Assembly: GCA_002839765.1 (NCBI GenBank)
Contig: PGYR01000023.1
Coordinates: 1 to 52,384, forward strand
Direction: 5' to 3'
Origin: Ignavibacteriae bacterium HGW-Ignavibacteriae-4
Lineage (GTDB): Bacteria; Bacteroidota; Ignavibacteria; Kapaibacteriales; UBA2268
Length of the DNA stretch: 52,384 bases
Shown: piece after piece, positions 24,137 to 49,561 of the stretch
How the letters are laid out: each line of letters opens with the position of its first letter
Numbering within the stretch: the first letter of the stretch is position 1
Notes under the pieces: model-generated
Told to the model about the DNA's origin: nothing
The model's input: only the letters and a program-made list of their open reading frames with translations
Databases searched by the model: none
Made by a program: the position numbers and the translations under genes

Positions 24137-26914
24137 GTGAAAACTAAAATATTATTTTACACCATTTCGATTGTATTATTTGCTTTGTGCCAAAATGTTA
24201 TAGGACAAGGTAGAGGTAAATTAATAGGGATTGTTAAAGATAAAACCACAAATGAATCGTTGATTGGAGTTAATATAATAGTAGAGGGCACTTATCTTGG
24301 AGCTTCTTCCGATATTGATGGTAAATATTATATTATTGGTGTTTCGGCCGGCACATATAATATAAAAGCGTCGTTCATAGGTTATAACTCTGTTACCGTT
24401 AAAAATGTTAGGGTTCAAACTGACCTAACAACCGAAATTAATATTGAATTGGAATCAACTTCATATGAAACCGAGACAGTTGTTGTCTCGGCGGAGAATA
24501 AGCTTGTTCAAAGAGATATAACTTCTACAAGACGCACAATAACCAGTGAAAATATGAGTCATGTTCCCGGTCTCGAATCGAGCGCTGATATTTTTAAACT
24601 AAATGGTGGAACAGTTCTCGGCGGAGCGCCTCAATCTCTTCAACTGGCAAATGGAACTCAACTTCAGGTAAGAGATGAAAGTGTTAAAGACGTTCATATA
24701 AGAGGGGGGCGAGGGGGCGAAATACTATTTATGGTCGACGGTATGCCTGTAAACCACCCATTGTATGGCGGTAGAATGGTGCTTGATCTTAACGTGAACG
24801 CGGTTGAACAGATTGAGCTTTTAACCGGAGCTTTTAGTGCCGAATATGGACAAGCTCAATCGGGTGTTGTAAATATAACAACAAAAAAAGGTGGCACTAA
24901 ACTGCATGGCGGTTTTGAATATAAAACAGATGATTTTAATTTTCTGCCCGAAAACTATAATACACATTACGGCTCGTTTAATATTGGAGGTCCGGAATTA
25001 ATAACAGGTCAATTACTTCCTCTTTTTGGTATAAAATCTCCCGCGTCTTTAAAATTCTTTTTAACAGCCAACGCAACACTAACAAACACTGAATATAATA
25101 ATCACAAAAAAAGAGATGATTTCTCAATCTTTGGGATTAATACTATTGGTAAACAGGACAACTCTAAAAACATTACAGGTAAAATAGACTGGGATGTGAC
25201 AAATAATATAAGAACAACGATTAGCTATAATGGCTCCTGGAAACAATGGAGCGCTTTCAGTTGGGAGTGGATAAACTATCCTGATCATATGGTAGAATAT
25301 AAAAGAGATAATAATAACGGCAATATTCTTGTTAGCCATGTTTTATCACAAAAAACGTTTTATTCGCTAAACCTCGGCTATCTTGGAATTAAATATAATA
25401 GTTCGTTAGACGCATTAACTCCTGATAAATTTTGGGTTATAAATCAAGATACAGTTTATTCGAAAGTGTTGGCACCTCAAAATGATCCCTTAACTCAATT
25501 TAGAGATGATAAAGGCTACGAAACTTTGTGGCGGGATGATAATACAAAAACTTATACAGTTAAATTTGATTTCACTTCACTTTTTCATCCGGAGCATTTA
25601 ATAAAAATCGGATTCGACGCTCAATTTCATGATATCAGTTATGTCGATATTCAGGATGGCGGTTATGAATTATCAGATTATGGAAGGTATTTATATTTAA
25701 ATGATAATTATTCAATTGCACCACCAGGACCGTATAAAGAATTTGGGCAATATAGGTGGGTATTTGACGTTAAACCTATTGTTGGCGGACTTTATGTGCA
25801 AGAAAAATTTGAAAAAGAATTTATGGTTATCAACGCCGGTGTGCGTGCCGACTGGTTTTATATGGGCAACAGTGTTGATCAAGCCGATTGGAAAGCGCAA
25901 TGGAAATCTGCCACAGGTATGAAAGCTGACTGGAATTTGTTAAAAGTTAAACTTAGTCCTCGTTTTGGTATTTCATTTCCTATTCAGGAACAAACTGTTA
26001 TCTTCTTTTCCTACGGACATTTTTCTCAATTACCAGAACTGCAATATTTCTACAGAGATCCATACTCGGGTGGTTTAACTGGAAATCCGAAACTCGATTA
26101 TGAACAAACAATTCTATATGAATTTGGATTAACTCATGAACTCTTTGAGAATTGGGCCATTGATATAAAAAGTTATGCAAAGGATATAAGTAAACAAGTT
26201 GGCACAACTCAATTATTATCAGCCTCAGGCTTACCTGTGGCTTTATATGATAATGTGGGTTATGCCCGTGCAAGAGGACTTGAGTTTGAATTGAATAAAG
26301 GAAGTTCTTATCATACAAGCGGTAAAGTTACATATACGGTTCAATGGGCAAATGGATATTCTTCATCCGCATTTGAAGATTATATTAGATCAACTAATGA
26401 TTGGCCTAATCCAATTAGAGAAAGAAGATTGGACTGGGATGTACGTCATCAATTAATTTTCCAGGGATCCTTATCCGCAACCCAGGATGATCCGATTACA
26501 CTTTTTGGATGGGAGATGCCTACCGATTGGGACTTAACCTTCTTGGCAAGTTTAAGTTCTGGACAGCCTTATACTCCATTTTCCTTAGATCCAGCCATTC
26601 TACAAGTGACCGAGAATACAGCCAATGGACCAATAACTTTTTCAGCGGATGTAAAATTTATCAAAAGTTTTGAAATATTGGGCGGTAAGTTTTCATTCTC
26701 AGTCGATGTATTTAATCTGTTTGATCAGAATAATGTTAACATTTATTATGGATTTAATACAGATACAGGTAAACCTTATAAATACGGCGATGTTAACGAA
26801 GCTACAAGCGGTAAATCTCAATTTTACGATTGGTTCACAATGTTTAAAAAACGAGATCCACGACAATTTACGACCGGAAGATATATAAAGTTCGGCGTAA
26901 GATGTGATATCTAA
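24137..26914 (+). CDS. SusC-like TonB-dependent outer-membrane receptor
   Basis: The protein starts with GTG after AATTAGGAGC and has a signal peptide (ends VIGQ). A carboxypeptidase-regulatory-like domain follows (~25-112, with GVNIIVEGTYLGASSDIDG), then a plug domain (~115-250, with VHIRGGRGGEILFMVDG and VEQIELLTGAFSAEYGQAQ) and a ~650-residue beta barrel. This is the layout of SusC/RagA-type receptors that import oligosaccharides with energy from TonB. No SusD-like gene follows; two lipoproteins precede it instead. The length (925) fits the family. Confidence 0.88.
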   Translation: MKTKILFYTISIVLFALCQNVIGQGRGKLIGIVKDKTTNESLIGVNIIVEGTYLGASSDIDGKYYIIGVSAGTYNIKASFIGYNSVTVKNVRVQTDLTTEINIELESTSYETETVVVSAENKLVQRDITSTRRTITSENMSHVPGLESSADIFKLNGGTVLGGAPQSLQLANGTQLQVRDESVKDVHIRGGRGGEILFMVDGMPVNHPLYGGRMVLDLNVNAVEQIELLTGAFSAEYGQAQSGVVNITTKKGGTKLHGGFEYKTDDFNFLPENYNTHYGSFNIGGPELITGQLLPLFGIKSPASLKFFLTANATLTNTEYNNHKKRDDFSIFGINTIGKQDNSKNITGKIDWDVTNNIRTTISYNGSWKQWSAFSWEWINYPDHMVEYKRDNNNGNILVSHVLSQKTFYSLNLGYLGIKYNSSLDALTPDKFWVINQDTVYSKVLAPQNDPLTQFRDDKGYETLWRDDNTKTYTVKFDFTSLFHPEHLIKIGFDAQFHDISYVDIQDGGYELSDYGRYLYLNDNYSIAPPGPYKEFGQYRWVFDVKPIVGGLYVQEKFEKEFMVINAGVRADWFYMGNSVDQADWKAQWKSATGMKADWNLLKVKLSPRFGISFPIQEQTVIFFSYGHFSQLPELQYFYRDPYSGGLTGNPKLDYEQTILYEFGLTHELFENWAIDIKSYAKDISKQVGTTQLLSASGLPVALYDNVGYARARGLEFELNKGSSYHTSGKVTYTVQWANGYSSSAFEDYIRSTNDWPNPIRERRLDWDVRHQLIFQGSLSATQDDPITLFGWEMPTDWDLTFLASLSSGQPYTPFSLDPAILQVTENTANGPITFSADVKFIKSFEILGGKFSFSVDVFNLFDQNNVNIYYGFNTDTGKPYKYGDVNEATSGKSQFYDWFTMFKKRDPRQFTTGRYIKFGVRCDI

Positions 26915-26951: not shown

Positions 26952-28727
26952 ATGATAAAGAAGATTTCTATAGTCGCTGTTATTATGCAAATCCTAATAG
27001 GATTTACGGCTGCGCAAGAGGCAACTTTTGATTGGAAGATGCATAATGTTGGCAATGTTCGCCAAGTAGTTACAAACAGAGGCGGATTAAATGCCAAGGG
27101 AGATGCAACTTTTGACTACAAGGGATTATTAAACTGCGAGCATCCGCTAAACAGTAATATGGAACATATTACAAATACAGGACTTTGGGTTGGTGCTGTT
27201 TTGAACGGAACCAGGTCAGTTTCCTTGGCAGATGGAGAAAGCGGAATTATTCATGAATTTTTTCCTTCAGCAGAGCCATGGGATACTGTGTGGGTTGTAA
27301 ATAAAAGGCAAGAAGTAGATATCCCTTATTGGCCTGGTTATAAAGGAATTTCTGATCAGGATTTTGTTTGCAGATATAATGATTATGGGCCAATAAGTCA
27401 GCGATTAACTGAGCATAGACCTTTATACGTTGATGTAATTCAAAGTACACATGCGTGGGCTTCTCCTCCACTCGATGAAACCATTGTTGTAGACTATTAT
27501 ATTATTCCAACAAAGTACGATTTAGAAAATGTATACATAGGCGTATACATGAACGGTAATGTTGGTTATGTTTTGGATAATAGTTACGGTTTAGACGATG
27601 AGTCTTTCTTTAGAAATGGAGAAAAAATTAGTTTTTGCCGTGATTTGCCCGGTGGTCCGGACGGTTCAGCTACAACAGTCGGGGAAAAATTTTACGTACC
27701 TGGAAATCCTAAAAAAACTACATATTACTGGTGGAATGGTGTTAAAGGATCTCCACCTGATAGGGATAATGATAAATATATTCAAATGTCTTCCGGAGAA
27801 ATAATGGAAGATCAACGAAGTACTGGGGACGGAACAAAGTCAATGGTAGCATTCGGCCCTTATGAAAAATTAGCTGTCGGTGACACGCTGCATTTGGTTA
27901 TGGGACTGTTACTTGGCGAGAATGAAAGTGATATTATTGCAAAAGGAAAATATTTAACTCAGCTTAAAGAAAGGAATTATAAAGTTCCATCCCCACCTCC
28001 AAGTCCCGTGCTTACAATTGTTCCCGAAGACAAAGGAGTTGTTCTGGATTGGACACCAAAACCGGATTCAAATCCAGAAGAATTTACCGATCCGGATAGA
28101 GCTGATGGAGTGGAAAAACCATTTGAAGGATATAGACTATATAAAAGCACTGTCGGAACAAGTGGACCTTGGACTTTGCTCGATCAATACGATATTGAGG
28201 ATGATTATGGACAAAATACAGGACTCCACCATTCATATAAAGACGTTGGTTTGCTTAATAATATCGAATATTACTATACAGTTACCGCATACACTTTACC
28301 CGACGAAACGATAGATTTTCCAGAGTTAGAATCGGCAAAAACAGTTAGTAGTAAAATAGTAACACCCGGTACACCTCCACCTGCGTCTGTTGGAAAAGTT
28401 GCGGTTGTTCCAAATCCTTACCGTGGGGACATGGCATACTATTCTTATAATCCTCCTTGGGAAAAACCACCAGGAGGAAGACGCTGGTTAGAACAAGATA
28501 GGAGAATTCAGTTTATAAATTTGCCAGAGTATTGCGAAATTAAAGTTTATACTGTCTCCGGAGATCTTATCTACACAATTAGGCATGAGAATGCTTCCAG
28601 AGGATATGAGGATTGGAATCTCACATCCAAAGTTGGGCAGGCAATATCCAGTGGAATTTATCTATATACGGTTGAAGACCTGAATAATGGAAAAGTTCAG
28701 GTGGATAAGTTTGTTGTTATAAAATAA
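26952..28727 (+). CDS. Secreted protein with FN3-like domain and T9SS-type tail
   Basis: Signal peptide (ends FTAAQ). The N-terminal ~340 residues match no domain I know; they are rich in aromatic and Gly residues (LNSNMEHITNTGLWVGAVLNG). A fibronectin-III-like segment follows (~350-470, LDWTPKPDSNPEEF ... GYRLYKS). A C-terminal FlgD-like/T9SS sorting domain (~480-591) starts VPNPYRGD and ends SSGIYLYTVEDL. Proteins of this build are common in Ignavibacteria next to SusC-like receptors and PorV-like barrels, as here. A role at the cell surface is likely; the exact function is unknown. Confidence 0.7.
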   Translation: MIKKISIVAVIMQILIGFTAAQEATFDWKMHNVGNVRQVVTNRGGLNAKGDATFDYKGLLNCEHPLNSNMEHITNTGLWVGAVLNGTRSVSLADGESGIIHEFFPSAEPWDTVWVVNKRQEVDIPYWPGYKGISDQDFVCRYNDYGPISQRLTEHRPLYVDVIQSTHAWASPPLDETIVVDYYIIPTKYDLENVYIGVYMNGNVGYVLDNSYGLDDESFFRNGEKISFCRDLPGGPDGSATTVGEKFYVPGNPKKTTYYWWNGVKGSPPDRDNDKYIQMSSGEIMEDQRSTGDGTKSMVAFGPYEKLAVGDTLHLVMGLLLGENESDIIAKGKYLTQLKERNYKVPSPPPSPVLTIVPEDKGVVLDWTPKPDSNPEEFTDPDRADGVEKPFEGYRLYKSTVGTSGPWTLLDQYDIEDDYGQNTGLHHSYKDVGLLNNIEYYYTVTAYTLPDETIDFPELESAKTVSSKIVTPGTPPPASVGKVAVVPNPYRGDMAYYSYNPPWEKPPGGRRWLEQDRRIQFINLPEYCEIKVYTVSGDLIYTIRHENASRGYEDWNLTSKVGQAISSGIYLYTVEDLNNGKVQVDKFVVIK

Positions 28728-28803: not shown

Positions 28804-29724
28804 ATGTTTAGAAAAATTTTAGTTGTTGTTATGCTCATTCCAGTATTTTCATTTGCTCAATACGAAAGACCGGGGAGCACGGATGGACAATTTCTGAAAA
28901 TTGGTGTCAGTCCTCGCGGAACGGCTATGGCTGATGCTTACATCTCAGTTGTTGATGGGGCAGAAGCCGCTTATTATAACGCCGCAGCTCTTGCTTGGCT
29001 TCAGGGAACCGATGTTGTATTTAATCATACCGTTTGGTTCGCGGGCATAAATCATGATTTTATTGCGGCTGCAAAAACATTTGGGGATGCTGGTACTTTT
29101 GGTCTATCCGTAACTGGACTTTATACTGATGAGATGAAAGTCAGAACTCCTTTACAGCCGAATGGTACGGGTGAGACATTTTATGCGGGAAATTATAGAG
29201 TGGGTTTAACTTATTCTAGGTATTTTACAGATAAAGTTACAATCGGGCTAAATCTCAATTACATCAATTTATCACTGCATAAAGATTTTTCCGCCGAAGC
29301 TGTTTCTATTGATATTGCAACAATGTATAAGTCGGAATTCAGGGATTTTACTTTCGCGATGCAAATTTCAAATTTCGGATCTGATATTAAATATGTAAAT
29401 GAATCATATCCATTGCCAACAAACTTTACTTTTGGAGCAAGTATCAATGCAGTTGAACTTGAAGCACAGAAATTGTTAGTATCCTTTTCTGCCGTAAAAC
29501 CAAATGATGGTTCTCCCTTAATGCAAGTAGGTTCCGAATGGAATTATAATAATACTTTTTTCCTTAGAGGCGGATATAATATTAATCATGAGGTTGCTTC
29601 TTTTACATTCGGGACAGGTTTCAAAATAAATTATGCTGAATATAGTTTTAGAACAGATTATTCATACAGCAAATATGAGTTGCTTGGTGGTTCTCATAGA
29701 TTTGGATTAGCTGTTAGAATATAA
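28804..29724 (+). CDS. PorV/PorQ-family outer-membrane barrel
   Basis: The 306-residue protein has a signal peptide (ends FSFAQ), the family opening FLKIGVSPRGTAMADAY and EAAYYNAAALAW, and alternating beta strands to a C-terminal aromatic-rich end (HRFGLAVRI). PorV and PorQ are barrel partners of the T9SS that help sort or attach cargo to the surface. Its presence directly after a T9SS-tailed protein suggests a locus-specific sorting or attachment partner rather than the housekeeping PorV. No gene or clear terminator is seen in 29725-29995; a TATAAT at 29970-29975 could be part of a promoter for the enzyme genes. Confidence 0.8.
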   Translation: MFRKILVVVMLIPVFSFAQYERPGSTDGQFLKIGVSPRGTAMADAYISVVDGAEAAYYNAAALAWLQGTDVVFNHTVWFAGINHDFIAAAKTFGDAGTFGLSVTGLYTDEMKVRTPLQPNGTGETFYAGNYRVGLTYSRYFTDKVTIGLNLNYINLSLHKDFSAEAVSIDIATMYKSEFRDFTFAMQISNFGSDIKYVNESYPLPTNFTFGASINAVELEAQKLLVSFSAVKPNDGSPLMQVGSEWNYNNTFFLRGGYNINHEVASFTFGTGFKINYAEYSFRTDYSYSKYELLGGSHRFGLAVRI

Positions 29725-29995: not shown

Positions 29996-31966
29996 ATGAA
30001 ATTTAGAACCATTTTATTATTCCTTTCTTCTTGGGTAATATTATTTTCATCCCTTCTTTCGCAAACACAATTGGAAAAAATAATTTCTCCGTCAAATTTA
30101 CCCTATCTGAAAAAATCTAAATTAATTCAGATATCCAGCTATGATACAACGGGGGGTAACAACGATAGAATAAATATCCATAGTGGAAATACCGCGGTGC
30201 TTGCGGATATTGAGGGACCAGGTGTTATAACCAGAATATGGGTGACAATTGATTCTAGAGATCCATATTTTCTGCGAAGAATATTATTAAGAATTTATTG
30301 GGACGGTGAAGAAAATCCTTCTGTTGAAGCTCCAATCGGAGATTTTTTCGGTAACGGGTTTCAATATACGCACTATTATTCTGCATTTGCTGGTATGACC
30401 AGCGGCGGTTATTTTTGTTATTTACCCATGCCTTTTAATAAATCAGCGAGAATAGAAGTTGTAAATCAAACAGGCGAGGAAGTGTACGCTTTCTATTATC
30501 ATATCGATTATCAAAAATTAGAAGAACCATTAGATAAAGATATCGCTTATTTCCACGCTCAATGGAGAAGAGATATCAGAACCAACAATAATGAAAATTA
30601 TTTAATTCTTGACGCGGAAGGAGAGGGGCATTTTGTTGGCGTAAATATGAATATGCAGCCTTATAAAAACAGTTACTGGTATTTGGAAGGTGACGAAATG
30701 ATTTATGTGGACGGAGAGCAGTTCCCGTCTGTTTACGGAACTGGCATGGAGGATTATTTTACAAGCGGCTGGTATTTTAAAAATGGTGAATACAGCGCTC
30801 CATACCATGGCTTAATTATGAAGGATGATTCTACTAGCAGAATTGTAGCTTACAGATATCATATAGGGGATGCAGTACCGTTCAAAAAATCGATTAAAGT
30901 TACAATTGAACATGGACACGCTAATGAAGAAATCGCTGATTTCAGTAGTACGGCTTTCTGGTATCAAATGGAGCCACATAAAAAATTTGAAAAAATACCC
31001 AACGGAAATTTAAGGATACCCCTTAGAGCAACAATACCCAATGGTTTATACGAAGCAGAAAATATAAAACCCTCAGATTGTAATCTCCAATTTAATGTTG
31101 AAGATATGAGTGAATACGGACCGGAATGGAGCGGTTTAAAACAATTGAGAGTGGAAGGGGAAAAAGAGAATGATATGTTCTCTCTTAATATTCCAGAGTC
31201 CGAGGAAAATGCGTACAATATAACTTTGTTTTATACAACAGGTCCAAATTATGGTGATGTAGAAATATTTAGTGAATTAAATAAGATTGGCGTATTCTCT
31301 GGATACAATAAAGATGTTATGCCAGGCGGCAAAATAGAATTACCGAATGTAAAATCAGGAAAAGATAATACAAAATTAAGTTTTAAAATCTCCGGGAAAG
31401 ATAAAAAATCTTCCGGTTATGCAGTTGGTCTTGATGGATTTAAACTTGTTCCTGTAAGAGAATATATACCGGAATGGTATATGATAGGTCCTTTTGCTAA
31501 CCCAAGAACTTCAGATATTGATCGAAAAGGTTTAGATACCGAATATCCGCCTGAAAAAGAAATTGATTTACAAAAAACTTATTCGGGGAAGGATGGTCAA
31601 CAAATAAAATGGACGTCAGAAAAAACTCCTGAATCCGGTCAAATGTCACTTTGGGAAAAATATACTCCTTCTGAATTCGTTGTGGCTTATGCACTTACAT
31701 ATGTGTATTCACCTGAAGATCAAAGAGTTCAATTCTTTATTGGGTCGGATGACGGCTCCAAAGTATTCCTGAATGATAAGGAGATATATAGATTTCTGGA
31801 TGTTAGAATCTCCGCGCCCGATCAGGATAAAGTTATCCTAAACCTTAAAAAGGGTTGGAACAAATTATTATTAAAGATAGAAAATAATTTTGGCGGTTAT
31901 GCCTTTTATGCGAGGATTTTGGATAAAAAAGGAAACTTAATAATTAATAAGGATCAAATTAATTAA
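29996..31966 (+). CDS. GH172 (DUF2961) family glycosidase
   Basis: Strong AGGAG site and signal peptide (ends LLSQ). Residues ~30-400 match the DUF2961/GH172 family: ADIEGPGVITRIWVT, IYWDGEENPSVEAPIGDFFG, and the hallmark YGTGMEDYF (Glu252) with a second conserved acid in EHGHANEE (Glu305). GH172 members act on alpha-D-fructofuranose or alpha-D-arabinofuranose linkages through a jelly-roll double domain. The C-terminal ~200 residues form an extra beta-sandwich (EWYMIGPFANP, IGSDDGSKVFLN) like a PA14-type carbohydrate-binding module. It opens the enzyme part of the locus. Confidence 0.85.
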   Translation: MKFRTILLFLSSWVILFSSLLSQTQLEKIISPSNLPYLKKSKLIQISSYDTTGGNNDRINIHSGNTAVLADIEGPGVITRIWVTIDSRDPYFLRRILLRIYWDGEENPSVEAPIGDFFGNGFQYTHYYSAFAGMTSGGYFCYLPMPFNKSARIEVVNQTGEEVYAFYYHIDYQKLEEPLDKDIAYFHAQWRRDIRTNNNENYLILDAEGEGHFVGVNMNMQPYKNSYWYLEGDEMIYVDGEQFPSVYGTGMEDYFTSGWYFKNGEYSAPYHGLIMKDDSTSRIVAYRYHIGDAVPFKKSIKVTIEHGHANEEIADFSSTAFWYQMEPHKKFEKIPNGNLRIPLRATIPNGLYEAENIKPSDCNLQFNVEDMSEYGPEWSGLKQLRVEGEKENDMFSLNIPESEENAYNITLFYTTGPNYGDVEIFSELNKIGVFSGYNKDVMPGGKIELPNVKSGKDNTKLSFKISGKDKKSSGYAVGLDGFKLVPVREYIPEWYMIGPFANPRTSDIDRKGLDTEYPPEKEIDLQKTYSGKDGQQIKWTSEKTPESGQMSLWEKYTPSEFVVAYALTYVYSPEDQRVQFFIGSDDGSKVFLNDKEIYRFLDVRISAPDQDKVILNLKKGWNKLLLKIENNFGGYAFYARILDKKGNLIINKDQIN

Positions 31967-32251: not shown

Positions 32252-34318
32252 ATGATAAAATATTTCCGAATTATTTTTATGGTTACCCTAATATTCGGGG
32301 TTCAGGTAAAATTGTTTTCCCAAATACATATTAACAAGGATATCGATATAATTAATGAAATATCCGCCGGCAATATTAACGTTTCCATTTATCCGGAATC
32401 CCTTAACTCGGAGATAAATAAATTATTTGATGGACAACCTTTTACTGAGTTTGGAATAAATGATGATGATTCAATAGAGGTTACAATATCGTTCAAAGAC
32501 CCAACTAGAATTTTTAAAAGTAAAACATTTTTTATGATTTACGGCGGTCAGTGGTCATTGGCTACAGCAAATAATTTGGAAGATTTAAAAACTAAAAAGA
32601 ATTCCTTTAAAGCTTGGGTAACTGATAAACCTTATAATGGTTTTCAATGGGATTCTACATCTTTAAATAACGAAGAAGTTAGCTTTATAAAACTTACTGC
32701 CAGAAACCTCTCAGCTAAAATTGTACATCTGGGTGAATGGAAAATTCAAATAGAGAAAACTTTGGTTTCTCTTGTAATTAAGCCCGACTTACCGAGGCTT
32801 TTACCTGGAACACATCTTACATTAAAAGTTGGAATGCTGGATGAGTTCAATAATTATTATGATTACAATTTAGGTGAAAGTCTGGTCTGGTCATCAGAAA
32901 ATTCGAACGTGGCCTCTTTTGAAGATGAATTTAGTGTTCTTACGGGTAAAACACTTGGCACCACAATTGTTTCAGTAAGAACCGCTTCAAACAAACTTAG
33001 CGGTAATTCTGTAGTTTCTGTGGTAAATGATTTTGAAGCTGAAAAGGCTGATAAAATTACAGTTAAGGTGGCGGTTGTATATCAAGATCCTATGGTTACA
33101 ATGGGCACAAGACTTCACACAAAATTTAACTGGTTCGATCCCAAACCAATGGTTCAGCAACTTGTTGATGAATATAATACATTCAGCGGCGGTGTTATTG
33201 ATTTTAAAATTGTGGAAGTCCATGACGATCAGTTTTTATTCACTCGTTTAGATTCGACTTATATGACAACAAATCAGCTGGTTACATATTTTAACGAGCC
33301 GGGATGGGCTACAATAAAAAGTTTAGCTGAAAAAGAAAACCGGATAAAATTTGATTATAAAGCGATGATTGAATATTACGATTTTTATAATAAAAGACAA
33401 AAAGGTGACATAGATGAAGTATGGGTGTATACTTTCCCGTTCGGCGGCATGTATGAATCCCAATTAGTTGGCAAAGAGGCTATCTGGTGGAATTCACCTC
33501 CTATAAAGGATGTTCCTGCAGACTTTACAAAATTAATTTCAGTAATGGGTTGGAACTATGAACGAACAGTAGATTTAGCAATGCACAGTTTTGGTCATCG
33601 AATGGAAAGCGCTGTTAGAGCAGCTTACGGCAGGTGGGATGTACATAATGCTAATCCTAATGGTTGGGAAATATTTACAAGTATTGATAAAGAACTGGGT
33701 AACAGAGCTCACATAGGAAATATACATTTTCCGCCTAATGGAACAAGCGATTACGATTATGAAAATACAAGAGTTGTAAAAACTTTTGCTAAAAACTGGA
33801 AACGTTATCCTAATTTACTAGATCAATATGACATGGTCAGTTGCAGCGAATGGAACTGCAATCAGCTTGGATATATGCGCTGGTGGTTTTCACACATTCC
33901 TCGATTTAAGGGTATAACAGACGGTGTTTTAAATAATTGGTGGCATTACTTTGTTGATTACCAGGGCGCTATAAAACTGGCCGCTAATTCACCGGTAGTT
34001 AGTGTTAAAGATGAAGTAAATTCTGCTATTCCCGAAAAATTTCACCTGAATCAAAATTATCCAAATCCGTTTAATCCAACAACAACAATTTCATTTGAAC
34101 TGCAAACTGCAGGGAGCGTTACGTTAACAATTTATAATTCATTGGGTCAAAAAGTTGAATCATTGTTGAATAATTCTGAGTTGTCAGCCGGAATTTATCA
34201 AACGCAATGGGAACCCAAGGTCGCATCAGGAATATATTTTTGCCGTATTTCCACTAATGACAAAAATAATTCGACATCAAACAACTCAAATATTATAAAA
34301 ATGATGTTCTTAAAATAA
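32252..34318 (+). CDS. Secreted protein of unknown family with HxxxHRxE motif and T9SS tail
   Basis: GGAGTG site and signal peptide (ends LFSQ). A beta-sandwich module (~25-170, with FDGQPFTEFGINDDDSIEV) precedes an Ig-like domain (~170-265, SSENSNVASF). The core domain (~270-580) is followed by a T9SS sorting domain (~590-688, NYPNPFNPTTTISFEL). The core shares long blocks with the next gene: MGWNYERTVDLAMHSFGHRMES (His445, His449, Glu452), FPPNGTSDYDY, YMRWWFSHIP and DGVLNNWW. The HxxxHRxE arrangement looks like a metal or catalytic site, but I know no characterised family with it. Its place among glycosidases suggests an enzyme or binding protein acting on the same polymer. Confidence 0.65.
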   Translation: MIKYFRIIFMVTLIFGVQVKLFSQIHINKDIDIINEISAGNINVSIYPESLNSEINKLFDGQPFTEFGINDDDSIEVTISFKDPTRIFKSKTFFMIYGGQWSLATANNLEDLKTKKNSFKAWVTDKPYNGFQWDSTSLNNEEVSFIKLTARNLSAKIVHLGEWKIQIEKTLVSLVIKPDLPRLLPGTHLTLKVGMLDEFNNYYDYNLGESLVWSSENSNVASFEDEFSVLTGKTLGTTIVSVRTASNKLSGNSVVSVVNDFEAEKADKITVKVAVVYQDPMVTMGTRLHTKFNWFDPKPMVQQLVDEYNTFSGGVIDFKIVEVHDDQFLFTRLDSTYMTTNQLVTYFNEPGWATIKSLAEKENRIKFDYKAMIEYYDFYNKRQKGDIDEVWVYTFPFGGMYESQLVGKEAIWWNSPPIKDVPADFTKLISVMGWNYERTVDLAMHSFGHRMESAVRAAYGRWDVHNANPNGWEIFTSIDKELGNRAHIGNIHFPPNGTSDYDYENTRVVKTFAKNWKRYPNLLDQYDMVSCSEWNCNQLGYMRWWFSHIPRFKGITDGVLNNWWHYFVDYQGAIKLAANSPVVSVKDEVNSAIPEKFHLNQNYPNPFNPTTTISFELQTAGSVTLTIYNSLGQKVESLLNNSELSAGIYQTQWEPKVASGIYFCRISTNDKNNSTSNNSNIIKMMFLK

Positions 34319-34329
34319 TTAAGGTATTC

Positions 34330-35346
34330 ATGAACAGCATTAGAGAAATATTACTTATTCTGATATTAGCAGTTCTTATCTCCGGCAATTATAATCATTT
34401 AAATGCCTTCGAGAAAAATGGATTAACAATAAAAGTAATTGTTCTAAATTTTGATCCCTTAATTCCAGAAAGAGAAAATAAGCAGCTGCACCTTGTTTAT
34501 GGATGGAACGATCCCAGAAAATTAGCTGAGGAATATATCAGTGACATAAAAGATGTTAGCCGCGGTTATATTAATTATAAAATAGTTGAATGGAATGATT
34601 TGAATGTGTTCCCTGCTAAAATTGATGGATATGTATATACCTCGGCAGAATTTATTGACTGCTGGGAAAAGAAGAGCAAATGGCATCAACCAGATAGTGT
34701 TGATTACGAAAAAATCGCTGTTGACTATGACCTGATAAAAAAAATTAACAATGATGAAATTGACGAAGTATGGATTTTCGGCGCACCCTATTTTGGTTAC
34801 TGGGAGTCCGCTATGCTCGGTCCCGGAGCTTTTTATATAAATGGAGGGATATATGATAGAGTCCCCTCTAATAAACCTTTTGTAGTTATGGGTTTTAATT
34901 ATGAACGCGGGGTTGCAGAGATGATACACGATCTGTCGCACAGAACTGAATCCACAATGACAAGAATTTATGGAGGCTGGGCTATTGATCAGTTAACCAC
35001 AACCTGGGCCAAATTTGCCGCTAACGAATTTCAATCGAATTCCTTATCTGCTGTGGGAACCTGCCATTATCCCCCAAACGGGGAGCGGGATTATGATTAT
35101 AAAAATCCGCGTTCAGTTAGAAGTAACGCAAATGACTGGCTGAATTTTCCATTCTTTAAAGGAGATACTATTACAGTTAATTGTGAAACTTGGGGTGGAC
35201 CCGATTATCACAGAAATTATATGAAATGGTGGTTTTCAAGGCTGCCAAATGCTTCTGGAGTATATTCTGACGGACGATTAAATAATTGGTGGGAATATGT
35301 ATTCAATTACAATAAATATGACGAAACCGGAAAACAAAAAAATTAA
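34330..35346 (+). CDS. Secreted paralogue of the HxxxHRxE protein, core domain only
   Basis: The 338-residue protein has a signal peptide (ends HLNAF) and is essentially the core domain of 32252-34318 without its N-terminal modules and T9SS tail. Conserved blocks are IDEVWIFGAPYFGYWES, VMGFNYERGVAEMIHDLSH (His200, His204, Glu207), YPPNGERDYDYKN, YMKWWFSRLP and DGRLNNWWEYV. It starts 12 bp after the larger paralogue. Lacking the sorting tail, it probably stays in the periplasm, so one reaction may be carried out both outside and inside the outer membrane. Confidence 0.65.
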   Translation: MNSIREILLILILAVLISGNYNHLNAFEKNGLTIKVIVLNFDPLIPERENKQLHLVYGWNDPRKLAEEYISDIKDVSRGYINYKIVEWNDLNVFPAKIDGYVYTSAEFIDCWEKKSKWHQPDSVDYEKIAVDYDLIKKINNDEIDEVWIFGAPYFGYWESAMLGPGAFYINGGIYDRVPSNKPFVVMGFNYERGVAEMIHDLSHRTESTMTRIYGGWAIDQLTTTWAKFAANEFQSNSLSAVGTCHYPPNGERDYDYKNPRSVRSNANDWLNFPFFKGDTITVNCETWGGPDYHRNYMKWWFSRLPNASGVYSDGRLNNWWEYVFNYNKYDETGKQKN

Positions 35347-35360
35347 GGCGATAAGTTTTA

Positions 35361-38156
35361 ATGAATAAAATGATTCAAAATGTATTGATTGTATTTTTTC
35401 TATTGCTTCTAATTTTAATCCCTGTTAAAGCGCAGGGACTAATAAGTTTAAAATTAACAATCAACAAAGGATTATTGGCGGAATCTGTAAATGTTTCTGA
35501 TGAGAATAATTACTCTCTGCCTGAAAAGACCTCACTGTTCTCTCTCGAGATAAATGATTGTTTATACTGTTCTTCCGACGCCAAATGTTCTTCTGAAAAA
35601 GGTGTAGTTAATTTTAAATTTATAAATGGTGTTGAAGGGAAGCTAAATGTTATAGGCGACGAATTTAGACTGGGCAATAAAACTGAAATTACTTTTATCA
35701 ACAACACAGCAGATACAATTGATTTATCCAACGTTGTTCCTTTTGGTCAATCCGATAAACATATTTTTATAACGGCTTCAGGTCCCTGGTCTTTGGCAAG
35801 AACTAAAATATTTCAACCGAACAGAGGTCCGGTTGGAGTAGTACTTCCCGATAATGCGTGGGAGCTGGGCTACAGTTCTATAGAACTAAATGGCAATCAT
35901 TCCGTTTGCGCCTTAACAAGAAGAACATCAGTTGAACGCGCGCAAAAAAGAAGATGGAAAACCATTCTTGAACCGGGTGGAACTGTTAAGTATAATTTGT
36001 TTATTGAGACCTTTACAGACAATTGGCAGAATGGTTTAAAACTAATATTCCAGAAAAAATACTTATATGATATCGATGGAGATTTTAATGAAAAATTGTA
36101 TAAGCGGGATGATCTCGAATGGATAAAACATTCTTATGTTATAAGTCTACAAATGTCATGGGATAAAATGTTTTATGATTGGCAAACCAACGAATATAAA
36201 CTTAATAATTATCTGGAAGATGGTAAAAAATTATTCGGCGGATGGGATATTTATGGAATGTGGCCAACTTGGCCTACATTAGGATTGGACAGCAGAAATC
36301 AGTGGGATCTATATGGCGATTTACCCGGTGGTTTAAATAAAATTAAGGAACTCTCAGGGCTTGCTAAAAATTCGGGTACAAAATTTTTTATCGCTTACAA
36401 TCCCTGGGACCAAAGTACCAGAAAAGAAAATCCTTATGAAGGGATGTCCAGGTTAATAGATGCGACTGATGCCGACGGGGTAGTTCTCGATACACAGGGC
36501 AACTCCAGCGATACTTTACAGAATGCGGCCGATAAAGTTAAAAAGGGTGTTATAATGTATAGCGAAGGCATGGCGGTTCCCAAAGATATGCAGGGAATCG
36601 TATCTGGTCGTGTACACGACGCCATATTTATGCCACCCCCACTTAATCTTAATAAATTGATCAAACCAGATTTTTCAATATTTAGAGTGGCACAGTTAAG
36701 AGAAGGAAGAATTCATAGAGAAATTGCGGTTTCGTTTTTTAACGGTTACGGTATTGAGATGAATGTTTTTGGACCAGGTAGACCGGACTGGATGGAAGAA
36801 GAATATTTATATCTTGGTAAATCTGCAAAAATACTACGCGATAACTCTCAGTCTTTCAATAGTAAGGACTGGGTTCCATTAATTCCATCATTAAAAGATA
36901 GTATCTGGGTAAACGTTTGGCCTTTGCCCTATAAAACTATTTATACGGTTTATAGTCTTGTACCTGAAGGATTTAGCGGAGCATTAATAGAAAAAGGTTC
37001 TGCACAAAATAAACACTATGTCAGTCTCTGGCATCATAAAGAACTGGATCCGGTTCATTTAGATGGCGAATTATATTTGCCGGCAGAAATTCGGGCATTT
37101 GATAAACAATGGTTAGGAACCCGAATGGAAGGAAACTTAGATTGTATTGCAGAACTTCCAAATATATTGAATGTCAGATTATACGGTGATTCTCTCGATA
37201 TTAAAGCTGGGGAGGGGGATTTATTAATTGTATGGGCTGGCGATCCTTCGTATCAAGCGGAATATAAGGAATTTTACAGCGTTAACGTTCACTTAAAACT
37301 TTTGGATTTATTTCCTAATTACGAAGGAAAATTTGTAATACAGCTTTTTAATAAAAGAAAATATAATAATGAATTAATTGACGAGAGAATTGTTAGTATT
37401 GACCCTGGTACAGCAAGGATAATCTCCAATGTTGAAAGAACTAAACCGGCTAAAACTATTCCCGATGGAATGGTTGAGATACCCGAAGGCAAATTCGAAT
37501 ATCACATTAATTCTGAAGACAGTTTTATAAAATATCCTGATTTTAGCGATACACAATATGTTTACACTAAAAAATATTATATTGATAAATACCCAGTTAC
37601 AAACAAACAATTTTATAATTTTATCAAATCCACCGGTTATAGCCCAAAAGACACTTCTAATTATTTAAAACATTGGATAAACAACAAATACCCTTTTAAT
37701 CAGGAAAGTTACCCTGTGGTTTATGTTAGTTTGGAGGATGCTAAAGCTTATGCCGCATGGGCTGGAAAAAGATTGCCGACTGATAAAGAATGGCATTACG
37801 CGGCTCAAGGTCCCAAATTAAAAAAATGGACTTGGGGTGATCTTTTTGATTCTACTAAATGTAATAATGCTAAAGGATTCTCGACTTCCACAGATGCCTA
37901 TCCAGAAGGAGAAAGTCAATTTGGCGTAAATGATTTGGTCGGAAATGTTTGGCAGTTAACAAACGATTTGTACGACAATGGCAGCAACTATTTCATTTTA
38001 ATACGAGGAGGAAGTTTCTATAAACCGACTTCTTCCTGGTGGTATGTTCAGGGCGGTCCTCAGCCAATTGATCATCAACAGATGTTATTAATGGTTTCGC
38101 AGGGATTTACAAGAAACGCTACAATTGGTTTCAGGTGTGTTAAAGACAGCAAATAA
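35361..38156 (+). CDS. Glycosidase-like barrel fused to a SUMF1-like domain
   Basis: Signal peptide (ends PVKAQ). Residues ~30-215 are beta-rich. Residues ~230-530 look like a TIM-barrel glycosidase of clan GH-D/GH13-like type, with GGWDIYGMWPTWPTLGL, KFFIAYNPWDQS and DADGVVLDTQGNSS (a candidate acid nucleophile). A beta domain follows, then from ~700 a SUMF1/FGE-sulfatase domain (MVEIPEGKFEY, YPVVYVSLEDAKAYAAWAGKRLPTD, VGNVWQLTND, GFRCV). The cysteine pair that binds copper in true formylglycine-generating enzymes is missing between RGGSF and GFRC, and no sulfatase is nearby. So the domain is more likely a binding module than a sulfatase activator. The fusion is unusual. Confidence 0.65.
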   Translation: MNKMIQNVLIVFFLLLLILIPVKAQGLISLKLTINKGLLAESVNVSDENNYSLPEKTSLFSLEINDCLYCSSDAKCSSEKGVVNFKFINGVEGKLNVIGDEFRLGNKTEITFINNTADTIDLSNVVPFGQSDKHIFITASGPWSLARTKIFQPNRGPVGVVLPDNAWELGYSSIELNGNHSVCALTRRTSVERAQKRRWKTILEPGGTVKYNLFIETFTDNWQNGLKLIFQKKYLYDIDGDFNEKLYKRDDLEWIKHSYVISLQMSWDKMFYDWQTNEYKLNNYLEDGKKLFGGWDIYGMWPTWPTLGLDSRNQWDLYGDLPGGLNKIKELSGLAKNSGTKFFIAYNPWDQSTRKENPYEGMSRLIDATDADGVVLDTQGNSSDTLQNAADKVKKGVIMYSEGMAVPKDMQGIVSGRVHDAIFMPPPLNLNKLIKPDFSIFRVAQLREGRIHREIAVSFFNGYGIEMNVFGPGRPDWMEEEYLYLGKSAKILRDNSQSFNSKDWVPLIPSLKDSIWVNVWPLPYKTIYTVYSLVPEGFSGALIEKGSAQNKHYVSLWHHKELDPVHLDGELYLPAEIRAFDKQWLGTRMEGNLDCIAELPNILNVRLYGDSLDIKAGEGDLLIVWAGDPSYQAEYKEFYSVNVHLKLLDLFPNYEGKFVIQLFNKRKYNNELIDERIVSIDPGTARIISNVERTKPAKTIPDGMVEIPEGKFEYHINSEDSFIKYPDFSDTQYVYTKKYYIDKYPVTNKQFYNFIKSTGYSPKDTSNYLKHWINNKYPFNQESYPVVYVSLEDAKAYAAWAGKRLPTDKEWHYAAQGPKLKKWTWGDLFDSTKCNNAKGFSTSTDAYPEGESQFGVNDLVGNVWQLTNDLYDNGSNYFILIRGGSFYKPTSSWWYVQGGPQPIDHQQMLLMVSQGFTRNATIGFRCVKDSK

Positions 38157-38192: not shown

Positions 38193-41100
38193 ATGTGTCG
38201 TAATAAAAATCATGAGTTAAATTTGTTCCCTTTCTTAATCGGTTTAATTACAGCGATTATTTTTTACTCTCCTTATCAATTATCCGCTCAACAAATTAAA
38301 GTTGGGTTGTTGGTAAATGATAAGATTGAAGAAATAGAAGAATTGCGCGCGGCCGAAAATATAATGATGAAAGAAAATCCATTCTTGATTGAGCAAATAT
38401 CGTTTAATCAAATTATTGAAGATGCGGGGTTATTAAATAATTATGATTTATTATGGTTTCATAGACCCGACACAGCAAGTTTTACAACAGCGGAACTTGA
38501 TAAAAAAGTAATTAAAAATCTCAGAGACTTTGTTTCGGGTGGGGGTGGATTATTTCTTACTCTTGAAGCATTTAAATATATAAATGTTCTAGAATTGGAA
38601 ACAAACATTCCCGAAACTCGTTCGGTAGAATCCATTGACGATGGATTTGGAAGAAAACATGGATTCCACTCTTTACGATCCCACCCTATATTTGAAGGAT
38701 TAAACGGAGGCGCATATATATTCAGACCAGTGGAAGATATGCGTGTAAGACAAATCGGATTTTTTGATAATAACGTTCCGAATAATGGTAAAGTTGCCGC
38801 AGTGGATTGGGCTTATATTTTTCTTTTAGAACAAAATAAAATGGTTTTAGAATACGAACTTGGTAAAGGTAAAATCCTTGCCGTTGGAGGTTATACCTAT
38901 TTTAATAAAAAGAACTTAAACGCAAAACATCTTATTATGTTTGCTGCCAACTCACTAAAATATTTGACCGGTAAAATGTCGGAGAAGGATATCAATTACT
39001 GGAATTTTCAAAAACAAGAAGTTCTTCCTACATCTCTTACAATGCCCAATATAACCATCAAGCCCTCGCCAAACTGGAAGACAAATGATTCCCAAATGAA
39101 AATTCAAAGTCGTATTGCTTCCGATAACTTTTTCGACATTGCCGGTCGTAAAATATTATTAATGGGAAAAGAAAACGGCGGACTGGATGAAATTTGGGCA
39201 CATCCATTTATGCCTGTTCGCGATTATAAGGTAGGAATCCAATTCTCTTACTCCGATTCAGTTTATTGGTTAAATGACCAAAGACCGGAGATAGAAATAT
39301 CTCCTGAATCTTTTACTCGTTTATACAAATTTAAACGCGCTTATTTAACTGAGGTGTTAACAGCCGATGTAAATGAAGCCGGCGGCGTATTTCACTATCA
39401 ATACAGAGGTGTTTATCCGGCAAAACTTATAGTTCAATACAATAGTAATTTCCGAATAATGTGGCCGTATTCCGAAAAAGCTTTAGGTTCTTTATTTTAT
39501 TCATGGAACGAGGCAATTAATGCATTCGTAATAAACGACAAAAGTGAAGATTTTTCCTGTTTTGTAGGAGTGAATAAAACACCGTTTCAAACTTTAATTG
39601 GTCAGTACAAAGGATTTGCAAAAAAGGATTCATTGTTCGAAGGTATTAGTACCGACGATTTGACTACAGGAGCACTTTTACAGATCAAATTAGAGCAAAA
39701 TGAAAACATTGATGTGATTTTTTCTGCATCTAATCAAGGTATTAATAAAACATTGGAAACATATAAATCGATTGCCGAAAACCCCCAAAATGTTTTAACA
39801 AATGCGTCGGCTTATAATAATAAAATTTTGAAAAATGTTTTAATGATTAATTCCCCTGATGAAAATTTTAATACTGGTTATAAATGGGCAGTAATAGGAA
39901 CGGACAAGTTTTTTGTTAATACCCCCGGATTAGGTGAATCTTTAATGGCGGGATACGCTACAATCAATAGAGGCTGGAACGGATCGCAGAAAGTTAGCGG
40001 GAGACCAGGTTATGCATGGTACTTCGGCAGGGATGCACAATGGAGCGGTATGGCAATAACCGATTATGGTGACTTTGATAAAGTAAAATCAATAATTTCA
40101 TTTTTTCAAAAATATCAGGATTTAAACGGAAAAATATTTCACGAACTTACTACTTCGGGCTTTGCACATTATGATGCGGCCGATGCAACACCATTATTTA
40201 TTGTGCTTGCAGGTAAATACCTTCGTCACTCCGGTGATATAAATTTTATTAAGGATAGTTGGAATAATATTAAAAGAGCAATTGATTTTTGTTTTTCAAC
40301 GGATACTGATAAAGACCATTTAATAGAAAATACAAATGAAGGTCATGGATGGGTTGAAGGCGGTGAACTATTCGGCGCGCATACAACTTTATATCTTGCC
40401 GGGTCCTGGGCGGCGGCATTAAAAGAAGCAAGTTATATGGCCGCAGCTCTTGATGAAGATGATCTCTCGGAGTACTACGCAGAAGAATCCGAATTAGTTA
40501 AAAGTATTGTCCAAATGGATTATTGGAACGAAAAAAATAATTTTTTCAATTATGGAAAACTTCTGGACGGATCTTTTAATCCGGAAAGAACATTACTACC
40601 ATCGGTTCCATTATATTTTAAACAAGTAAGCGTCGATAAAGCTAAAAAATTTCTTAATACAGTAGCGTCCAATAACTTTACAACAAACTGGGGAGTAAGA
40701 ATAGTAGGTGAGTTCAGTTCTATGTTTCAACCTACGGGATATAATTACGGCAGTGTATGGCCTTTGTTTACGGGCTGGACGGCCTTAGCAAATTATAAAT
40801 ACGGAAAACCTATTCAAGGGTACACTCACATTCTTAATAATCTTAATGTATACAAAAACTGGTCGCGTGGTTATGTTGAAGAAGTTCTTAACGGTTCAGA
40901 ATATATTCCGACCGGAGTATGTAATCACCAATGCTGGTCGGAAACGATGGTTATTCAGCCCGCGATAGAAGGCATGCTGGGATTAGAAGTTTCTGCGATT
41001 GATAAAGAGATTATAATTGCTCCAAAATTACGACCGGATTGGGATAATCTTTCTGTAAACAATATAAGAATTGGGGAAGATTTAATTTCATTCGATTATA

Positions 41101-41606
41101 AAAGAAACAATGATTTTATACAATATAATTTTGCACTCGAAGGGAGCGGTAAAGTTAAACTTATTTTTCAACCGTCGCTTCTACCCGGGACAGACATCAA
41201 AAAAGTATTGCTGAACGATGAGGAATATTCTTTCAGTTTATTGGAAGATGGTCATACTGTATCGCTATTAACCGCCATTGATAAAATGAATCCGGCAAAC
41301 ATTAAAATTTACTTCGAAAACGGAATTTCTGTATTACCATTAGAACAAATTGTTAAACCCACTTACAAAGCCGAAGGATTAAGGATTATAGACTCTGGAA
41401 TCAGCGGTGACGACTATATAATTAAATTGGAATCCCTAACCGGAAAGACAGATAAGATAAAAGTTTATTCCAATATGGAGATAGATGGAAGGATAACAAA
41501 CGCGAATATAATTTCTAAAAATAAAAATATTTATGAACTTGAAATAAAATTTGAAGAATCCGGAGAAAAATATTCTACGGAAACTGTCCGGGTAAAAATC
41601 AAATAA
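38193..41606 (+). CDS. ThuA-like domain fused to a debranching-type (alpha/alpha)6 glycosidase
   Basis: AAGGA site and signal peptide (ends QLSAQ). Residues ~33-270 form an alpha/beta domain like ThuA/GATase-1 folds (KVGLLVNDK, LLWFHRPD, FVSGGGGLFLTLEA, GKILAVGGY). Residues ~330-560 are a beta-sandwich. Residues ~570-970 form an (alpha/alpha)6 barrel with WYFGRDAQWSG, GHGWVEGGELFG and YNYGSVWPL, the pattern of amylo-alpha-1,6-glucosidase/GH15-GH133-like enzymes. A C-terminal beta part (ends with KIKVYSNM) closes it. It is a paralogue of 45912-48512, which lacks the ThuA-like part. The ThuA-like part has no clear catalytic triad. Confidence 0.7.
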   Translation: MCRNKNHELNLFPFLIGLITAIIFYSPYQLSAQQIKVGLLVNDKIEEIEELRAAENIMMKENPFLIEQISFNQIIEDAGLLNNYDLLWFHRPDTASFTTAELDKKVIKNLRDFVSGGGGLFLTLEAFKYINVLELETNIPETRSVESIDDGFGRKHGFHSLRSHPIFEGLNGGAYIFRPVEDMRVRQIGFFDNNVPNNGKVAAVDWAYIFLLEQNKMVLEYELGKGKILAVGGYTYFNKKNLNAKHLIMFAANSLKYLTGKMSEKDINYWNFQKQEVLPTSLTMPNITIKPSPNWKTNDSQMKIQSRIASDNFFDIAGRKILLMGKENGGLDEIWAHPFMPVRDYKVGIQFSYSDSVYWLNDQRPEIEISPESFTRLYKFKRAYLTEVLTADVNEAGGVFHYQYRGVYPAKLIVQYNSNFRIMWPYSEKALGSLFYSWNEAINAFVINDKSEDFSCFVGVNKTPFQTLIGQYKGFAKKDSLFEGISTDDLTTGALLQIKLEQNENIDVIFSASNQGINKTLETYKSIAENPQNVLTNASAYNNKILKNVLMINSPDENFNTGYKWAVIGTDKFFVNTPGLGESLMAGYATINRGWNGSQKVSGRPGYAWYFGRDAQWSGMAITDYGDFDKVKSIISFFQKYQDLNGKIFHELTTSGFAHYDAADATPLFIVLAGKYLRHSGDINFIKDSWNNIKRAIDFCFSTDTDKDHLIENTNEGHGWVEGGELFGAHTTLYLAGSWAAALKEASYMAAALDEDDLSEYYAEESELVKSIVQMDYWNEKNNFFNYGKLLDGSFNPERTLLPSVPLYFKQVSVDKAKKFLNTVASNNFTTNWGVRIVGEFSSMFQPTGYNYGSVWPLFTGWTALANYKYGKPIQGYTHILNNLNVYKNWSRGYVEEVLNGSEYIPTGVCNHQCWSETMVIQPAIEGMLGLEVSAIDKEIIIAPKLRPDWDNLSVNNIRIGEDLISFDYKRNNDFIQYNFALEGSGKVKLIFQPSLLPGTDIKKVLLNDEEYSFSLLEDGHTVSLLTAIDKMNPANIKIYFENGISVLPLEQIVKPTYKAEGLRIIDSGISGDDYIIKLESLTGKTDKIKVYSNMEIDGRITNANIISKNKNIYELEIKFEESGEKYSTETVRVKIK

Positions 41607-43713: not shown

Positions 43714-43732
43714 TTATGGGGCCCATTAACAA

Positions 43733-48512: not shown

Positions 48513-48538
48513 ATATTTTTATTTCATTGAGAGGGAAT

Positions 48539-49561
48539 ATGGGCCATAGAATTACAGTTAAACAAATTGCAGACGAATTAGGTGTTTCTATGATGACTGT
48601 TTCTCGTGCGCTGAACGATAGTCCGAATATCGAGGCGAAAACACGCGAGAAAGTTCTTGCAACTGCAAAAAAAATGGGGTACATACAAAACCATATTGCC
48701 CGCAGTTTAGTTCAGCGTAAAACAAACACTATAGGGGTCGTTGTCCCCGAAATTACTCACTCATTTTTCCCAGAAGTTATTAGAGGAGTTGAAGAGGTTA
48801 CTTACGCGAATAACTATCAGCTCATACTAACTCATTCGGCGGAAAACGCCAAAAGAGAAATTAATGCGATTGACACTTTAGCCTCAAAACGAGTTGACGG
48901 TATTTTAATTTCTACAGCGGAATCGGCAAAAAGCAGTAAAAAGTACAAACAAATTATGGAGATGGGCATGTATATTGTTTTTTTCGATAGATGTGTTCAT
49001 AACATAGGTGCGAGCTGTGTAAGAATTGAAGACGAAAAATCATCTTATAAAATAACAGAACATCTGATTTCGTACGGATATACTAAAATTGCTCACTTAA
49101 GCGGGCCGACTTCTGTATCTATTGGTCAAACCCGTTTGAATGGTTTTAAGAAAGCTTTGAAAAAAAACAATATCGATCTTAACAAAAAATATATCGTTGA
49201 ATCCGGGTTTCATGAAGACGGCGGATATTCCGCAATGAAGAAAATATTGGATTTGCCTAAAAAGGAATGGCCCAGAGCAATTGTAGCGGTTAACGATCCG
49301 GCCGCTTTTGGAGCGATGAAAGCAATATTAGAAGTAGGACTTAAAGTGCCTGAGGATATTGCCATTGTTGGATTCTCCGATGATATAAGATCCGAATTAA
49401 TGCCGGCTCCGTTAACTACCATGAGACAACCTGCTTACCAAATTGGGAAAAAAGCCGCTGAAAAATTGATTAAACATATTCAGAATAAAGACGAAATTGT
49501 GGAGGATATTATCATTGATTCGGAACTAATTATTAGAAAATCCTGCGGTATTTATAAATAG
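48539..49561 (+). CDS. LacI-family transcriptional regulator
   Basis: From ATG48539 (after GAGAGGG; an in-frame TTG at 48527 is less likely) the protein is 340 residues. It has an N-terminal helix-turn-helix (TVKQIADELGVSMMTVSRAL), a hinge helix (NHIARSLVQRKTNTIG) and a periplasmic-binding-like effector domain (VVVPEITHSFFPEVIRGVEE ... DIAIVGFSDD ... LTTMRQP). LacI proteins bind palindromes with a central CG and release them, or bind them, on sugar binding. Matching sites are at 19439, 19510 and 49642. It probably represses the locus until a breakdown sugar is present. Confidence 0.93.
   Translation: MGHRITVKQIADELGVSMMTVSRALNDSPNIEAKTREKVLATAKKMGYIQNHIARSLVQRKTNTIGVVVPEITHSFFPEVIRGVEEVTYANNYQLILTHSAENAKREINAIDTLASKRVDGILISTAESAKSSKKYKQIMEMGMYIVFFDRCVHNIGASCVRIEDEKSSYKITEHLISYGYTKIAHLSGPTSVSIGQTRLNGFKKALKKNNIDLNKKYIVESGFHEDGGYSAMKKILDLPKKEWPRAIVAVNDPAAFGAMKAILEVGLKVPEDIAIVGFSDDIRSELMPAPLTTMRQPAYQIGKKAAEKLIKHIQNKDEIVEDIIIDSELIIRKSCGIYK

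Follow-up and report, generated by a model that had tools for sequence, protein, structure and literature searches.

What kind of protein is encoded by two adjacent genes that share a conserved His/Glu motif and lie beside a run of glycosidase genes, and what might it do? The pair was analyzed in a window consisting of the full 52,384-nucleotide stretch of contig PGYR01000023.1 from Ignavibacteriae bacterium HGW-Ignavibacteriae-4, to which all coordinates refer. Both genes are on the forward strand, separated by 11 bases, and encode P0001 (positions 32252 to 34318, 688 aa) and P0002 (positions 34330 to 35346, 338 aa). As described below, sequence comparisons support the two proteins as branches of one undescribed secreted bacterial family. 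The role that we favor, tentatively and at slightly less than an even chance, is that of a metal-dependent protein acting on glycans and built on a repurposed zincin-like scaffold.

Two branches of one family

P0001 and P0002 share a common core of about 305 aa, with 31% identity over 327 columns (168 bits, E value of 3e-51). A first-pass annotation of this DNA had listed five sequence blocks shared by the two adjacent open reading frames, and all five were found in both proteins. As that annotation stated, P0002 is only the bare core (positions 34402 to 35316, with the structure prediction starting at 34408) behind a hydrophobic N terminus. P0001 also starts with a hydrophobic N terminus, followed by an N-terminal region (positions 32318 to 33049), the family core (positions 33050 to 33967), and a type IX secretion system (T9SS) type A sorting domain (positions 34058 to 34270; TIGR04183, 1.1e-10). 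The T9SS tail had also been predicted and is clearly present; however, the binding modules attributed to the same copy were recovered in relatives only. The first 150 aa or so of the N-terminal region have no assigned domain and its second half is Ig-like in relatives, with a Big_2 domain in 19 of 26 long-form N termini at an E value of ≤0.01; in the same comparison, Big_2 was not detectable in P0001 itself. These 26 sequences (alignment A5) are those within the length range among 29 long forms, L030, L035, and L070 being excluded. With a T9SS tail on one protein and a bare core in the other, an outer location for P0001 and a periplasmic one for P0002 are plausible.

The proposal that the family is new was supported by the Pfam, NCBIfam, and PDB-sequence searches, none of which returned a family of known function. 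P0002 matched no Pfam or NCBIfam model at an E value of ≤1 and no PDB sequence at an E value of ≤10, and the P0001 core gave only chance-level matches to A2M_recep (E value of 0.37) and StyD (E value of 0.14), both far below their cut-offs. When 81 members were searched, the best Pfam E value was 0.036, no curated profile was matched above its cut-off, and the sole NCBIfam match at an E value of ≤0.01 was an irrelevant one in a single member (0.0082). The 81 member cores likewise matched no SusD or related Pfam model at an E value of ≤1. The family profile found in the PDB only a short likeness of cytochrome c3 to GxxHxPxNGxxDY (E value of 0.08 or worse), which was discarded as chance. In the literature on zincin folds, pseudoenzymes, GH172/GH127, and polysaccharide utilization, as judged by titles and abstract openings, no description of the family was found.

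One scan of genome contigs yielded 108 relatives, of which the best 80 (L003 to L082) were taken for study; their hosts include Armatimonadota, Planctomycetota, Ignavibacteriota, Calditrichota, Bacteroidota, Chloroflexota, and others. The family profile matched 8 of 395 genomes in a sample of the window's phylum (own genome counted), and a P0002 search of 60 genomes (the own genome plus 59 relatives) matched the own genome alone, indicating a patchy distribution. A tblastn search of plasmids with P0002 gave nothing, and a scan of viral contigs gave 130 pattern stretches and no relative.

To place the two copies, a quick IQ-TREE tree with SH-aLRT support only was built from an alignment of 81 rows (A3), excluding L051 (which contains an X), the main copy of L041 (broken frame), most third-type copies (see below), and the fragments L039, L072, and L080. 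As seen in this tree, a split with a support of 100 separates 44 rows, including P0001 (P0001-type or "L" clade), from 37 rows, including P0002 (P0002-type or "S" clade), the latter side also taking in a few deep rows and one third-type copy. Both types are present in the window, L003, L005, and G313, where the copies were assigned by length and motif. The tandem arrangement reported for the window recurs in L003 and G313, and one gene intervenes in L005. Since P0001 and P0002 belong to different old clades, divided by a branch with full support, a recent tandem duplication was ruled out as the origin of the pair.

A third, divergent branch carries ExxxHQxE (HxxxHQxE in L098) together with GWxHxPPN. 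Its copies (L037:8034-9143, L041:8097-9179, L042:240-1286, L052:19639-20712, L094, L095, L097, and L098) adjoin P0001-type copies or lie within about 20 kb of them, and that of L096 is on another contig. In the KSB1 genome bin of L041, the P0001-type copy (L041:9179-11236) is split into two open frames and is thus broken or misassembled. On the P0002 side, fusions were observed to right-handed beta-helix, laminin-G, Ig-like, or DUF5050 regions (L006:2167-5895, L029:3173-6592, L035:9122-12220, and L036:2919-5753). In addition, a Saprospiraceae protein of 1,977 aa (L070:7952-13882) unites the family core with an M43 peptidase domain (HEFGH), with C-type lectin and HYR domains, and with a T9SS tail.

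Conserved residues and a coupled switch

Next, conservation was evaluated in 95 distinct sequences, obtained from 110 matches by dropping duplicates and spans shorter than 150 or longer than 600 aa. The window copies enter this set through L084, and residue numbers are those of P0002. Among the positions checked, Y126, E146, E159, R193, H204, E207, W226, H246, and Y255 are invariant in all 95 sequences, and many Trp and Tyr residues are conserved across the family. The motif that had been described as an invariant HxxxHRxE reads HDLSHRTE in P0002 (positions 34927 to 34950; H200, H204, and E207) and HSFGHRME in P0001 (positions 33584 to 33607; H445, H449, and E452). Its second His and its Glu are indeed invariant; however, position 200 is H in 62 sequences and E in 33, with no other residue, and R at position 205 (87 sequences) gives way to Q in 8. 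The corrected motif is [H/E]xxxH[R/Q]xE, accompanied by the distant H246 (positions 35065 to 35067, within GxxHxPPNGxxDYDY), whose counterpart in P0001 is H492 (positions 33725 to 33727).

Position 201, the site of the catalytic Glu in proteases, is S in 53 sequences, N in 20, D in 20, and A in 2, and never E. The zincin motif HExxH was found in none of the 95 sequences, nor was the metzincin motif HExxHxxGxxH, the residue three positions past the second His being Glu in every case and never Gly. That no sequence examined retains the protease Glu speaks against an ordinary peptidase. On the other hand, three Glu, two His, and one Arg residue never vary and position 200 is restricted to H or E, a pattern that favors a functional metal or catalytic site over decay.

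The state of position 200 is coupled to that of position 257, a Tyr in P0002 (positions 35098 to 35100). H200 is accompanied by Y257 in 61 of 62 sequences and E200 by W, F, or I in 32 of 33. The tree requires a minimum of 6 changes at position 200 and 8 at position 257 (Y versus other). In six independent pairs differing at position 200, position 257 switched along with it in 5.9 on average and the opposite way in none (sign test, median p of 0.031 with a range to 0.0625, uncorrected for column choice). It ranked first of 302 columns, the others being scored with favorably chosen residue sets and the runner-up reaching 5.1; in the smaller 81-row set, the co-switch was seen in 3.0 of 3 (p of 0.25). 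This co-switching suggests that both residues belong to one site. Residue 257 also ends the GxxHxPPNGxxDYD[Y/W] segment, which contains H246, so that this segment may pack against the motif helix.

Predicted fold and register of the motif helix

The P0002 core was modeled by AlphaFold2 from 81 sequences with a pLDDT of 96.2 (97.1 for a core cut just past the motif). H200, H204, and E207 (model residues 174, 178, and 181) all fall on a helix spanning model residues 169 to 188, and their spacing of i, i+4, and i+7 places them on one face. The three residues thus do not lie apart in the predicted structure, the outcome that would have counted against the earlier proposal, and a site centered on His, His, and Glu is supported by their placement on one confidently predicted, active-site-like helix.

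In a Foldseek search of the PDB with the whole core, all 50 rows listed were zincin metalloproteases (best E value of 1.6e-4). These rows are redundant chains of a few proteins, at 6 to 16% identity, and include ADAM22, snake-venom enzymes, TACE, and 6o38, which we take to be CpaA with its chaperone. With the shortened core, 47 of the 50 rows listed were zincins (best E value of 2e-3). VIA gave Z scores of up to 7.6 for the whole core and 7.9 for the shortened one, with 16 and 24 zincin rows among 50, respectively, and a viral fold library gave nothing at an E value of ≤0.001.

The register was read from the VIA rows of the shortened core using end residues only (last model residue 184), by which a one-residue slip is indistinguishable from a gap. 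For TACE, ADAMTS4, ADAM33, and atrolysin C, the customary catalytic Glu numbers were used. Those of ADAMTS1 (E402) and ADAMTS5 (E411) are given in excerpts of PMC5610267 and PMC5877627, respectively. H204 falls exactly on the second His of HExxH in 3 of 17 comparable metzincin rows (two of ADAMTS1 and one of ADAMTS4) and is one residue off in the other 14 (ADAMTS5, ADAMTS4, TACE, ADAM33, and atrolysin C); the count leaves out 7 of the 24 zincin rows, whose numbering is not comparable (6o38, 5y2z, 3k7n, 9clp, 3dsl, 3q2g, and 3q2h). In the hhalign comparisons, which did not reach significance (see below), the best segment places HxxxH on HExxH in both the reprolysin (PF13688) and M64 (PF09471) sets. 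These alignments suggest that the motif helix may take the place of the HExxH helix, within zero to one residue.

Gene neighborhood

The pair lies between a DUF2961 gene (positions 29996 to 31966, by Pfam), which we take to belong to family GH172, and a run of glycosidase genes, with a TonB-dependent receptor upstream (positions 24137 to 26914) and a LacI-type regulator at the end (positions 48527 to 49561), all on the forward strand. Downstream of P0002, also on the forward strand, are a protein of about 930 aa (positions 35361 to 38156), in which about 690 aa without a significant Pfam match precede an FGE-sulfatase domain; a GDE/GH116-like glycosidase with DUF4960 (positions 38193 to 41606); two MGH1/GH63-like glycosidases spanning positions 41626 to 45904 (41626 to 43713 and 43733 to 45904); and a second GDE/GH116-like glycosidase (positions 45912 to 48512).

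To compare this context across the family, loci were typed by hand from the tree, with L003 and L005 in both groups and L046 as P0001-type, and with L039, L041, L051, L072, L080, and the window counted in neither. Longer loci are those with called genes reaching 12 kb, length being the end of the last gene called by a simple caller that misses some genes, and the names of the gene clusters rest on a few Pfam-scanned members each. At least one of the clusters c1 (GH127 and/or the FGE-fused protein), c2 (DUF2961), c3 (GH63-like), and c5 (GDE/GH116-like) was present in 32 of 34 longer P0001-type loci, compared with 4 of 24 P0002-type loci. Among the former, c2 was found in 18, the SusC-like c4 in 16, and c7 or c10 at the SusD position in 16, c10 having no Pfam match. 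The link to glycans is therefore strong for the P0001 clade and weak for the P0002 clade. The anticipated polysaccharide connection stands beside P0001-type genes but mostly not beside P0002-type genes.

Some P0002-type genes have other neighbors: in L024, L026, and L027, the gene lies between an Amidohydro_3-type cluster gene and a TonB receptor, unlike the glycosidase clusters, and L026 and L027 have lipobox-like N termini. The 930-aa FGE-tailed protein, possibly an undescribed glycosidase, has kin at L049:11002-13800, L058:10996-13812, and L078:11028-15818; in L078, it is joined to a GH127 enzyme. Of the 34 longer P0001-type loci, 17 contain long members of its cluster. Upstream in the window, two conserved proteins of 591 aa (positions 26952 to 28727) and 306 aa (positions 28804 to 29724), with no Pfam match above the cut-off, trail the TonB receptor in the same order as in L064 and L065. 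No SusD was found among the window genes scanned, and these two proteins are possible substitutes for it.

A proposed zincin-like scaffold that may act on glycans

In the repurposed scaffold that we favor, a metalloprotease-type alpha/beta fold would carry [H/E]xxxH[R/Q]xE on the helix that bears HExxH in zincins. A divalent metal would most likely be held by [H/E]200, H204, and H246 from a later loop, and E207 (or E159) could supply the acid or base in place of the missing protease Glu. The likely job would be to cleave a glycan or glycoconjugate bond in a metal-dependent manner, with the T9SS-tailed P0001 acting outside the cell, P0002 periplasmic or cell associated, and DUF2961 (GH172), GH127, and GH63-like enzymes as partners. 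According to an excerpt of PMC3650047, zincins have Glu in place of the first His of HExxH at about twice the rate seen for this substitution in the average protein, and the same is true of Arg. A stronger version of this proposal, possible though doubtful, would make the family a new class of glycan-cleaving enzyme, in which the zincin scaffold serves as a metal-dependent hydrolase or lyase of carbohydrates, has an interchangeable [H/E]-His-His metal site and a displaced acid/base Glu, and is widespread among uncultured bacteria and in SusCD loci.

Several observations weigh against a repurposed zincin active on glycans. With the shortened core, no Foldseek row reaches an E value of 0.001, and TM-scores are low (TMq up to 0.35 for the whole core and 0.46 for the shortened core). 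The VIA Z scores, at ≤7.9, are middling by the tool's own grading and are tied with Argonaute MID domains (7.7). The hhalign comparisons to the reprolysin and M64 sets were not significant (0.5% each), and 2 of 14 unrelated neighbor-cluster controls outscored them (7.2% and 2.0%). Position 257 has also changed without position 200, as the 8 changes versus 6 indicate, and loss of the protease Glu is typical of pseudoenzymes. Finally, glycan clusters occur in only the 4 of 24 P0002-type loci mentioned above, two of which (L003 and L005) owe them to a P0001-type copy too.

The main rival, which we consider rather unlikely, is a pseudo-zincin that binds glycans or serves as an adaptor, in which the catalytic Glu has been lost, Trp/Tyr-rich loops grip the sugar, and the His/Glu set is structural or metal stabilized. 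The lack of Glu at the second motif position throughout the 95 sequences and the many conserved Trp and Tyr residues are consistent with this, as is the gene order of many Bacteroidota loci, which run c4 (SusC-like), c7 (SusD), c11, c9, or c4, c10, c13, and then the family gene. Inactive ADAM proteins offer precedents, such as ADAM22 with QSLAH, as described in an excerpt of PMC11266112. However, a binder would not usually need as many as six charged or His residues to be kept without exception in two old clades and several phyla, and position 200 tolerates only H or E.

The prediction itself could also mislead, in that the core might have its own alpha/beta (Rossmann-like) fold and an unrelated activity, on carbohydrates or otherwise; the resemblance to zincins would then reflect a common arrangement. 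The VIA Z scores below 8, the tied Argonaute/PIWI rows (34 of 50 for the full core and 25 of 50 for the shortened core), and the nonsignificant hhalign results point in this direction, but the Foldseek rows listed are nearly all zincins, and the placement of a conserved HxxxH on HExxH within one residue is something that a different fold would not have to produce. We regard this explanation as improbable.

A shade more improbable still is an unusual glycopeptidase that cuts peptide bonds beside glycans, such as those of hydroxyproline-rich plant glycoproteins, and uses E207 or E159 as its general base. GH127, which includes enzymes for extensin arabinans, is encoded next to family genes, and L070 joins the core to a real M43 peptidase and C-type lectins. 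The structure 6o38, taken to be CpaA, is among the Foldseek rows listed and is the best VIA row for the shortened core. CpaA is an O-glycan-dependent metzincin protease, as reported in an excerpt of PMC7542363. Yet neither HExxH nor HxxG occurs in any of the 95 sequences, and the core has no peptidase-family Pfam match in 81 members. The motif, with Glu at position 201 in 0 of 95 sequences, led us to discard a simple peptidase as an explanation.

Significance and comparison with known systems

Zincin folds are known chiefly as peptidases. If the favored proposal is true, the family would represent new glycan-cleaving chemistry, or else, as a binder, a clear case of a protease fold turned sugar-binding module; both can be tested on the 312-aa core. 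In either case, the family supplies a motif for proteins that the libraries searched leave unnamed in many glycan-utilization loci.

Surface glycan-binding proteins of SusCD loci resemble the family in their gene order after SusC/SusD in Bacteroidota, in secretion, and in some lipobox-like N termini. In contrast to them, the family core has no SusD, SusE, or CBM Pfam match and has an invariant charged constellation.

The metzincins (adamalysin/ADAM/ADAMTS, M12B; and CpaA, presumably of family M72) would be alike in the N-terminal alpha/beta layout and the active-site helix, both predicted, with a register of zero to one residue. Unlike metzincins, the family lacks the catalytic Glu and HxxGxxH, and its first His may be Glu. 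Its helix continues beyond the second His, E207 standing at the position of the metzincin Gly, and a long Trp-rich C-terminal part follows.

Inactive zincins, both of the ADAM22 type and in the families with substituted HExxH described in the excerpt of PMC3650047, would share with this family an altered HExxH on a zincin-like fold. What sets the family apart from them is that, across phyla, its altered motif either does not vary or alternates strictly between two states, and that further His, Glu, and Arg residues are invariant; this suggests a new function rather than decay.

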